Assembly: GCA_003978485.1 (NCBI GenBank)
Contig: QNZF01000028.1
Location: 1-42,706 of the forward strand
Direction of reading: 5' to 3'
Length of the DNA stretch: 42,706 nt
Source: Persephonella sp.
GTDB lineage: Bacteria > Aquificota > Aquificia > Aquificales > Hydrogenothermaceae
The translations under genes and the position numbers were made by a program. Positions 2,816 to 7,026 of the stretch are shown one piece after another; position 1 is the stretch's first letter, and each line of letters starts with the position of its first letter. Below the pieces are notes generated by a model. That model saw only the letters and a program-made list of their open reading frames with translations. It searched no databases and was not told where the DNA came from.

Positions 2816-3170
2816 ATGAGTAATAGAAATATTTTTAAATATCTTACAAATAAGGAAATAAAAGCTATATTAGAATTAAAAAAGGAAAAAGGAAATTTTA
2901 TATTTAAATCCAAATGCAAAAGTTATATTTTACGGTTCAAAGGCTAAAGGTGATTATAGTAGCGAGAGTGATATAGACCTTTTAGTTGTTATTCCAAATT
3001 TTACTGAAGAATTAAAATATAAAATAATTGATATAGCTACAGAAATAGAGCTAAAGTACGATGTGGTTTTTGGATTAGTTGTTATCAGTAAGGATAAATA
3101 TGAAAACTCAAATCTTTTTAAATCATCTCTTTATTATAAAAACTTAAAATCGGAAGGCATACTCATTTGA
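2816..3170 (+). pseudogene. MNT-type nucleotidyltransferase remnant (frameshifted)
   Basis: ATG at 2816 opens MSNRNIFKYLTNKEIKAILELKKEKGN..., then the homologous frame shifts near nt 2895 to LNPNAKVILYGSKAKGDYSSESDIDLLVVIPNF..., ending TGA 3170. GS(x)AKGD...SDIDLLV is the nucleotidyltransferase signature. Confidence 0.75.
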
Positions 3171-3263
3171 AAGATAATGCTATGTAAACTTAAATCTTTC
3201 AAAAATAAAAATTATTGCTTATTATTAATTAAATAATATGAAAAATTTTAAGGGAGAAGGAAT

Positions 3264-3488
3264 ATGACTAGAGAAGAAGCTATCCAAAAATTATTAGAAA
3301 CCGATGACGATTTCAGAAGCTGGTATGAAGAACACAAAGAGTTAAAATGGAAAGTCCACAAGTTAGAAAAACATTTTCCACCTGACCCTAAACTTGAAGC
3401 AGAGCAAGAAAGACTTAAAATAAGAAAGTTATATTTAAAAGATTTAATGGAAAAAAGAATTAGAGAGTTTTTAGAAAAAGGAGAATAA
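3264..3488 (+). CDS. DUF465/YdcH-like small protein
   Basis: 74 aa; pattern DDDFRSWYEEHKELKWKVHKLE...EQERLKIRKLYLKDLM. Confidence 0.65.
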   Translation: MTREEAIQKLLETDDDFRSWYEEHKELKWKVHKLEKHFPPDPKLEAEQERLKIRKLYLKDLMEKRIREFLEKGE

Positions 3489-3500
3489 ATTTTTAAACCT

Positions 3501-3540
3501 AGGTCGGTAAATTTATATCTTTTGGTTTGCCGACCTTTTA
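3501..3540 (+). terminator. Rho-independent terminator
   Basis: AGGTCGGTAAA ... TTTGCCGACCT (11-bp stem with one G-U) followed by TTTT. Confidence 0.75.
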
Positions 3541-3571
3541 ACCGATATTAAAAAATTAGGCGGAGAGTAAA

Positions 3572-4732
3572 TTGGGAATAAAGTCTGGCGTTGCTAAAGC
3601 TGGTATAAAGCCATCAGGTCAATTAGACATCTTAGTTATGAAGTTTAAACCTTCTGTATATTCTGTTTACCTTACCCAAAATTCATTGGCGGCGGCACCT
3701 GTTATATACGACAGGGAAATTAGGGAAAAACAGAAAAAAATATCAGCTATAGTTGTTAACAGTGGAAATGCGAATGCGGCAACTGGAGAAGAAGGTTTAA
3801 GAAACGCAGAAGAGATGGCAAAAATAGTTGCAGATAAATTTAATATACCGTCAGAAGAGGTATTAGTTTTCTCAACTGGAATAATTGGTGTCCAATTACC
3901 TATGGATAAAGTTAGAAAAGGAATAAACAAAGCTATAGACAATTTACAGGATTGGGATTTAGAGTTATCAGCAAAGGCTATAATGACAACAGACAGTTTT
4001 CCAAAGTATGCTGAAGAAGAAATAAAAGTTAACGGAAAAAGCTTTTTTGTTAAAGGTATATCTAAAGGTGCTGGGATGATACATCCATCTATGGCAACAA
4101 TGCTAGCATATATATTTACGGATGTTAAAATATCAAAACCGCTTTTAGATGAGATAACCAAAGACATCTTAGAAAAAACCTTTAACTCTATTGATGTTGA
4201 CGGATGTGAAAGTACAAATGATAGTGTTTTATTTGTTGCCACAGGTGAAAGTGATATTGAGATAACGGAGGAAAACAAAGATTTACTCGTTAAACCTTTA
4301 TACAGTGTAGCTTTAAAACTGGCTAAAATGATTGTTAAAGATGGTGAAGGTGCAACAAAATTAATTGAGATTGATGTTAGAAATGCAAAATCTAATGAAG
4401 AAGCTAAAAAAATAGGTGAAAGTATAGCTGTATCAAACTTATTTAAAACTGCAATGTTTGGAAACGATCCAAACTGGGGAAGAATACTATCTGCGGTAGG
4501 TCAATTACATTTAGATATAGACTTTTCTAAAGTTAAACTATTTATAGGTGAGTTTTTAATTTATGACGGAAAACCTATAAAGTTTGATAGAAAAAAAGCA
4601 GAGGATTATTTAAAAAGGAATTCAGAAATAAAAATAAAATTAATTTTAAATAGAGGTTCTTCAAACTGGAAATATTACACTTCAGATTTAACTTATAAGT
4701 ATGTTGAAATAAATGCGGAATATACAACTTAA
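3572..4732 (+). CDS. argJ: Bifunctional glutamate N-acetyltransferase/amino-acid acetyltransferase ArgJ (TTG start)
   Basis: Conserved KGAGMIHPSMATMLAYIFTD autoproteolysis region, NSGNANAATG, GNDPNWGRI. Confidence 0.95.
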   Translation: MGIKSGVAKAGIKPSGQLDILVMKFKPSVYSVYLTQNSLAAAPVIYDREIREKQKKISAIVVNSGNANAATGEEGLRNAEEMAKIVADKFNIPSEEVLVFSTGIIGVQLPMDKVRKGINKAIDNLQDWDLELSAKAIMTTDSFPKYAEEEIKVNGKSFFVKGISKGAGMIHPSMATMLAYIFTDVKISKPLLDEITKDILEKTFNSIDVDGCESTNDSVLFVATGESDIEITEENKDLLVKPLYSVALKLAKMIVKDGEGATKLIEIDVRNAKSNEEAKKIGESIAVSNLFKTAMFGNDPNWGRILSAVGQLHLDIDFSKVKLFIGEFLIYDGKPIKFDRKKAEDYLKRNSEIKIKLILNRGSSNWKYYTSDLTYKYVEINAEYTT

Positions 4733-5604
4733 TGTATTACTTTAGTATTTTTCGGGTTTTCTTTAAAATAAGGGAGAGGGTATATATCGACAATCAGTTT
4801 ATTTTTTATTTTATTAAAACTATAGAAGAAAGATTTAAGGTAAAAGTATGCTCATTTAAAAATGGAATATGTAAAGAATGCTATCTTAAAGATATATGCA
4901 TATTTCCCAAATACTTTTTTTACGATTTATGGTACAAAAGACCAAACCTTTTTATTACATCTCCAAAATACTTAATGGAAGAATTGGAAGAAGATAAAAA
5001 ATTTAAAATAGATTTTGTAATGTTAAACGAAGGAGTTGATAGTTTTCGTATATTTTTAGAAGCAATTCAGGGGGTATGTAAAGACCCAAATTTTAAAAAC
5101 CTTATTTATAAAGAAGTCTATGGATACAATATCTTTTCGGATACATTAGAGAAGTTAGACCTTTTAAAACCTTTCCCAAAATATGACATAAATGAGTTCT
5201 TAAATTTAAGGTCAGGAGTTAGAAAAATAAAAATTAAAATTTATCCAACTTTTGTTGATTTTAAATATTCAGATGAACCTAGTAATGATTTTATAAAATT
5301 TTTATTATTTTCTTTATTTTCGGAAAGGGTTAAAAGTTTAACAGGTAAAGATATTTCTTTAACACATTTTTTATCTGAATTAGATTTTAAAGTTTTAAAT
5401 TGGAAAAGTTTTGAATACAAAGATTTTATGATAAATAATGAAATTGAAAAGTTTGATAATCACAAATTTTTTAAAGGGGAATTTTTAATAGAAGGAGATT
5501 TATCACCTATATGGTATGTGTTTGAGTTAGTCCAAACTTTCAGTATCGGTAAACTAACAAATTACGGTTTTGGTAAAGTCAAAATTATAAAGTTTGAAAT
5601 TTAG
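4732..5604 (+). CDS. Cas6-like RAMP protein (solitary; putative pre-crRNA-processing-type endoribonuclease fold)
   Basis: N-terminal cysteine cluster C-x(9)-CxxC-x(5)-C (CSFKNGICKECYLKDICIF). C-terminal GEFLIEGDLSPIWYVFELVQTFSIGKLTNYGFGKVKI resembles the Cas6 C-terminal domain (G.i.y.gdls....l.l....hiGk.t.fGlGk). ATG overlaps argJ stop (TAATG). Confidence 0.7.
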   Translation: MYYFSIFRVFFKIRERVYIDNQFIFYFIKTIEERFKVKVCSFKNGICKECYLKDICIFPKYFFYDLWYKRPNLFITSPKYLMEELEEDKKFKIDFVMLNEGVDSFRIFLEAIQGVCKDPNFKNLIYKEVYGYNIFSDTLEKLDLLKPFPKYDINEFLNLRSGVRKIKIKIYPTFVDFKYSDEPSNDFIKFLLFSLFSERVKSLTGKDISLTHFLSELDFKVLNWKSFEYKDFMINNEIEKFDNHKFFKGEFLIEGDLSPIWYVFELVQTFSIGKLTNYGFGKVKIIKFEI

Positions 5605-5853
5605 CTTAATTTAGCGTCCATTTCGGAATTAAATTTAATGTAAATAATGAAAATTGATAGTAGGTTAAAGTTAAAAAATTATAAAATTATCTAGGCTTAA
5701 ATTAATGTGCTTTTTAATTACCGAATTAAATTTTATTTAACCAGCCAGTTGTAATCGGGTCAAATAAAAGTTTCTAATAAAATTAATAGTTTGTTGAACT
5801 TTAATAAATGATAACTTAATACAAAACAGCTAATCATTTAAAATCTTTTAACG

Positions 5854-7026
5854 TCATTTAATCAAATTCTCTATTACTTCAGGATTTTCCTTTAAGTATA
5901 CTTTTACAGTATCTAAATCATCAAAAGATTTTAATGTATTTATTAAATCTAACAACTTATCCTTAAGTTCTAAATCCTCTTTTAAATACTCCGTTAAGCA
6001 ATTTTTTATAATCTCATCTTCAGACTTAAATATCTCTCCTTTATAATCTAAACTATTTGATGGAAATATAAACATATTTTTCAAGTATAAAATTCTACCG
6101 TTATCAACATCAATATTTTTTTCTTTTAAAAGTTTTAAAACATTATCTTGGGATAACTTTTTAAATTCTCCTTTTAGTATAACTATAGGCTTTTTATCAG
6201 ACGTATCGTTTATTTTTTCTATTTCATTATTAAGTCTATCTAATTCCTCATCTATATTGTTGTCATCTAAAAATCTATATAAAAACCTTCTCCTTTTCTT
6301 TAATTCTATATATCTAATATCTGTTTTATCCAAATTAATATCTACTAAAGCAACAAACTTAGATTTATTTTCTTCATTTTTGTTATAAGCTGTAAACTCT
6401 GTTGAGCCTATATGGACTATGTAAGAGTTATTATCTCTTTTGATAGGTTCTTCCGCTATATGATAATGTCCAATTCCTGTGTAGTTGTATTCTATCGGTA
6501 TTTCTTCATCTAACATTAACTTACTATCTAAAAAGTAAGGATAAAACTCTTGATGTAACATTAAGATTTTGTAATCCTGTTTACTCTTTTCAAGGAGTTT
6601 TTCCAATGCAACCTTTAATCCGTTTAACTTTCTAAGTGCAGTTTTTGGTATATACTTAACACCTATAATGTCTATACCGTTAAACTCTTTCACACCTGAG
6701 TTTATAAGCTTTAAACCGAAATTTTCCAAAATCTGTAAAGGTGATATATCCTTTACACTATTACCCCTGTCGTGATTACCGGGAATACAAAACATAGAAA
6801 TATTTTTATCACTTAATTTTTTCAGTAAGTTTATACTATCAATAATAGTTTTATTTGATGGTCTAGATGTATGGAAGAAGTCCCCTGTATGAATTATAAA
6901 ATCTACATTTTTATTAATAGCAATATCTATAGCTTCGTTGAAAACATCTAAAAAGTCCTGTTCTCTCTCTAATAAGCCGTACTGTCTATATCCTAAATGT
7001 GTATCACTTATATGTAAAAATCTCAT
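5854..7026 (-). CDS. sbcD: SbcD/Mre11-type DNA repair exonuclease (metallophosphoesterase)
   Basis: MRFLHISDTHLGYRQYG, HTGDFFHTSRPS, IPGNHDRG, GHYHIAE. Confidence 0.88.
   Translation of the reverse strand: MRFLHISDTHLGYRQYGLLEREQDFLDVFNEAIDIAINKNVDFIIHTGDFFHTSRPSNKTIIDSINLLKKLSDKNISMFCIPGNHDRGNSVKDISPLQILENFGLKLINSGVKEFNGIDIIGVKYIPKTALRKLNGLKVALEKLLEKSKQDYKILMLHQEFYPYFLDSKLMLDEEIPIEYNYTGIGHYHIAEEPIKRDNNSYIVHIGSTEFTAYNKNEENKSKFVALVDINLDKTDIRYIELKKRRRFLYRFLDDNNIDEELDRLNNEIEKINDTSDKKPIVILKGEFKKLSQDNVLKLLKEKNIDVDNGRILYLKNMFIFPSNSLDYKGEIFKSEDEIIKNCLTEYLKEDLELKDKLLDLINTLKSFDDLDTVKVYLKENPEVIENLIK

Follow-up and report, generated by a model that had tools for sequence, protein, structure and literature searches.

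The locus described here raises the question of why a gene resembling cas6 lies directly behind the biosynthetic gene argJ, and whether its product still serves a CRISPR system. The window, i.e., the whole stretch of DNA that was analysed (42,706 b), is an entire contig of a MAG from a hot-spring bacterium of the Hydrogenothermaceae (1.16 Mb, 78.6% complete; hereafter G000). An earlier note, made from the sequence alone, had described the gene as a solitary member of the Cas6/RAMP family and had left three options for it, namely that it serves an array elsewhere in trans, that it is a leftover, or that it has been repurposed.

The protein encoded by the open frame matched the PADLOC Cas6 model (E=1.7e-12), and a profile-profile comparison with 20 relatives from other genera gave a probability of 99.2%. 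Pfam PF10040, the profile that the earlier note had proposed as a check, gave a divided result, scoring the window protein below threshold (19.6 bits; cut-off, 25) and its 56%-identical sister above it (28.7 bits), and an NCBIfam search with the window protein returned nothing relevant. The AlphaFold2 model (pLDDT 80.6, pTM 0.82; residues 230-242 poorly modelled and poorly aligned) resembled Cas6 crystal structures: ranks 1-30 of a Foldseek search against the PDB were without exception occupied by Cas6, alone or as a fusion (best E 3.4e-10), with 3ufc, a 'Cas6-related gene', at rank 28, TM-scores (query) to Cas6 structures were ~0.4-0.6, and two RRM/ferredoxin-like domains were present. The window protein and a CRISPR-linked relative had the same top Foldseek match, the Cas6 domain of the Cas6-RT-Cas1 fusion from Marinomonas mediterranea (6dd5), a domain that differs from the window protein in belonging to a type III-B system and shares 12% identity with it. 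The glycine-rich loop before the last strand reads GKLTNYGFGKV, and its three glycines are invariant in 25/25 sequences (22 family sequences and 3 outgroup Cas6 proteins). By homology and predicted fold, i.e., the double RRM fold, glycine loop and Cys4 cluster, the window protein is a member of the Cas6 group, in keeping with the earlier note, which had recognised both the N-terminal cysteine cluster and the C-terminal Gly-rich RAMP motif (Table 1). Chance resemblance to Cas6 was ruled out by the PADLOC profile, profile-profile and fold matches.

Table 1. Features of the argJ-cas6-like locus (positions in the window).
Feature	Position	Strand	Evidence
argJ, upstream partner	3572..4732	+	Pfam ArgJ 454 bits; stop/ATG one-base overlap; sister gap 11 nt
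Cas6-group RAMP protein, 290 aa, diverged	4732..5604	+	ORF; PADLOC Cas6; PF10040 sub-cutoff; AlphaFold2; Foldseek
Helix-1 segment, residues 20-37, relatives' PxxGSxxRGxxGxxL lost	4789..4842	+	residue comparison with relatives
Four-cysteine cluster C40, C47, C50, C56, retained	4849..4899	+	invariant in 22/22 family sequences and 3 outgroup Cas6
Segment aligned to relatives' RxSxRxxxxM, residues 240-245, lost; model confidence low	5449..5466	+	alignment, model
C-terminal glycine-rich RAMP loop G273...G279-F-G281, retained	5548..5574	+	family and outgroup alignment

No CRISPR array was found in the window, and none of its 47 other ORFs matched a PADLOC Cas model, as had been claimed from the letters alone. 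A normal cas operon next door was likewise rejected, there being none in the window, which is the whole contig, and the contig of the sister gene holding other genes. When the scan was extended to the genome, array searches gave nothing above control level in G000; the absence of cas genes did not hold, as other contigs carry Cas10b, Cmr1, Cmr3, Cmr4 and Cmr5 (type III-B) and Csm5 with Csx1 (type III-A). Since these genes sit at contig ends, where they are cut off (L089:1-2612, L090:4686-7175, L091:8313-10987), the type III operons and any arrays have been split by the assembly. Cas1 was not found in G000, nor was a second Cas6 when searched for with PF10040, the canonical Cas6 of the same-genus genome G031 and the family Cas6 profile. 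Something must process the crRNAs of G000, since type III effector genes are present and its assembly yielded no further Cas6, and the effector genes on other contigs make a role in trans possible.

The identity of argJ is secure, and its stop overlaps the ATG of the cas6-like gene by one base (TAATG), as first read in the sequence. In a second MAG of the genus (G032, 97% complete), a 56%-identical copy starts 11 nt after argJ, so that the linkage, for which a check in relatives had been suggested, is kept in 2/2 genus genomes having argJ; the G031 assembly is without argJ. Among 33 argJ loci elsewhere in the family, G032 included, only that of G032 has a cas6-like gene after argJ; the genes following argJ in the other 32, named from their N-terminal sequences, were 2-isopropylmalate-synthase-like, a LysR-type regulator, or unrelated. 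The other neighbours, upstream and downstream, differ between G000 and G032, and argJ is the sole conserved partner seen. We infer that the cas6-like gene is co-transcribed with argJ, and the two are probably translationally coupled. A promoter and terminator scan of positions 3200-6000 was uninformative on the operon, with sites no more numerous than in shuffles. There were no cas genes and no array beside the sister gene on its 9.6 kb contig. Elsewhere, G032 carries cas4-cas1-cas2 (Cas1 identified by profile; Cas4 and Cas2 by reading adjacent ORFs), a Cmr6 gene lying where a contig ends, and an ordinary Cas6b distinct from the argJ-linked protein (231 bits). The Cas6b gene (L123:601-1413) is itself solitary, adjoining a toxin-antitoxin-like pair and a truD-like gene on a 3 kb contig with no array. 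In G031, an array and Cas10 accompany that genome's own Cas6.

Homologs occur in 26/41 Hydrogenothermaceae genomes, one in each. The CRISPR-linked Cas6 of the family (CRISPR system precrRNA processing endoribonuclease RAMP protein Cas6; PADLOC PDLC01477) resembles the window protein in length, fold, Cys4 cluster and C-terminal glycine loop. However, it is only ~23% identical to that protein and in most cases has arrays and Calp/Csm operons as neighbours, whereas the window gene stands behind argJ without arrays or cas neighbours. Relatives from other genera were mostly near CRISPR repeats (14/20, same stretch) or type III and Calp genes. Since the relatives in G016 and G034 are also found among ordinary genes (metabolic genes in G034, locus L037) with their signature intact, a solitary position alone is not special. 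Several CRISPR-linked relatives adjoin a SAVED-Lon protease (CalpL-like) operon (L035:5285-8936, L036, L038, L044, L045), an arrangement reportedly found in published type III Calp systems.

Comparison of residues set the argJ-linked pair apart from these relatives. Sixty-six columns are invariant in the 20 relatives; the pair has kept 16 of them, and 44 are lost in both copies. Those kept are mainly the columns of the Cys4 cluster and the glycine loop, plus a few structural positions, while those lost include PxxGSxxRGxxGxxL of helix 1, several glycines and lysines, and RxSxRxxxxM. The two motifs are kept in the 20 relatives and largely in the 3 outgroups, and are absent from both argJ-linked copies. 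Since most of the lost positions are also conserved in the Cas6 of Allochromatium and Deinococcus plasmids, the change took place on the argJ-linked side. Net charge is low as well, at +4 and +2 in the pair vs +11 to +21 in the relatives. The subfamily has no invariant histidine, and the usual histidine test for Cas6 is therefore not applicable to it. Cas6 catalytic residues are poorly conserved and vary strongly between subfamilies (PMC3150331); losing the signature of one subfamily is thus not proof of inactivity, and for these two reasons the loss of activity is something that we infer.

The repeats of the relatives have a common pattern, CCCGN{4,10}RGGGNATTG, which was found in the stretch around the gene in the 14 relatives noted above and was absent from the incomplete assemblies of the three genomes of the genus, G000, G031 and G032. 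Tandem ATTGMRAS or TTGAAAS repeat ends were present in G000 and G032 at control-level counts only. The tandem search works for those repeat endings, since it recovered the arrays of G031 and G033. The MAGs are incomplete, CRISPR arrays assemble badly, and the searches for arrays presupposed particular repeat endings, so that G000 and G032 may contain arrays that are unassembled or built from different repeats.

One of the explanations that we weighed is that the gene is slowly decaying, a leftover of a Cas6 whose array was lost. The copies in the two species have diverged by 36% in nucleotides and both are intact, with pN 0.275, pS 0.694 and dN/dS ~0.18 (dS near saturation), and 0/2000 neutral simulations to the same divergence were stop-free (mean, 19.6 stops). 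The cas6-like gene is maintained by purifying selection, and a pseudogene is disfavoured by both the dN/dS and the simulations. The protein does evolve faster than ArgJ (dN 0.343 vs 0.102; argJ dN/dS 0.086 in the same two genomes), and the lost signature and the failure to find an array would also suit decay; however, given the intact copies and the selection on them, we consider a leftover improbable. We give similarly little credence to an old, separate Cas6 lineage that was gained by transfer, not derived from the family's own Cas6, and is active on its own terms. Within the phylum, the window protein finds its best matches among the Cas6 proteins of the family itself, each genome has exactly one of the two types (argJ-linked or family Cas6), and no close relative outside the genus was found in the genome contig collection (own patterns), viral contigs, plasmids or the rest of the phylum. 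What speaks for transfer is the stem branch, saturated at ~9 changes per site, a length on a par with the distance to other phyla, when the argJ stem is only 0.38. With saturation on the Cas6 stem, and with an outgroup that joins within the family at low support, the tree cannot separate fast divergence from transfer.

The main rival is that the protein is the working Cas6 of G000, acting in trans on an unassembled array and feeding the III-A and III-B systems, its altered sequence matching a new repeat. Trans-acting Cas6 is ordinary, and this explanation gains from the type III genes of G000, from the lack of any other Cas6 found there, from the intact Cas6 among metabolic genes in G034 and from the purifying selection. 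It has to contend with a protein that has lost positive charge and most of the conserved residues, with the lack of an array above control level in either argJ-linked genome, and with the separate Cas6b that G032 keeps, and we regard it as possible, if doubtful. The residue loss, the absent repeat and the G032 Cas6b tilt the balance, short of proof, toward a changed function. Our preferred reading, to which we assign a rough probability of 0.48, is that of a diverged Cas6-group protein, out of CRISPR loci, which would no longer cleave the ancestral repeat and would bind a new RNA target. A Cas6-group protein would have left the CRISPR loci and come to follow argJ in this genus, its expression becoming tied to that of argJ by co-transcription and translational coupling. 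Basic and catalytic-type residues that are conserved in the CRISPR-linked relatives have been lost, and ancestral pre-crRNA cleavage would presumably be abolished, while RNA binding would continue, redirected to the new target. RNA binding without ancestral cleavage appears to be the most likely mechanism. Since the subfamily signature was tested for and not found, we do not file the protein as a working pre-crRNA Cas6. A more specific proposal is that this Cas6 has been recruited to a cellular task other than CRISPR: produced together with ArgJ, it would bind a housekeeping RNA, possibly also a metal, and perhaps regulate arginine synthesis or RNA processing. This seems to us unlikely. Among the three options of the earlier note, then, the leftover is disfavoured, action in trans is possible, and repurposing is favoured, though unproven.

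A known case of a Cas6 fold that may bind RNA but not cleave it is the non-catalytic Cas6 of Pyrococcus species (compare 3ufc above), although that protein is of a different subfamily from the window protein and is not in a biosynthetic operon. Cas4 and Cas1 are also known outside CRISPR loci. A search of openly accessible papers for inactive or stand-alone Cas6 found no direct precedent. A Cas6 that is conserved, under selection and located behind a biosynthetic gene, and that lacks the RNA-handling residues of its relatives, would be a naturally occurring case in which to ask whether proteins that process crRNA are reused as general RNA-binding proteins, and would caution that the label 'pre-crRNA processing endoribonuclease' may be given to such genes in genome annotation without justification.

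Two minor observations concern the remainder of the window. The other 47 ORFs gave PADLOC matches to the mad3, mad8, PDC-S10 and PglW models, which probably reflect generic enzyme domains, not defence systems. Upstream of argJ, at 2816-3170, lies a broken nucleotidyltransferase-like (MNT) frame, the N-terminal part of which stops early, with the remainder in another frame.
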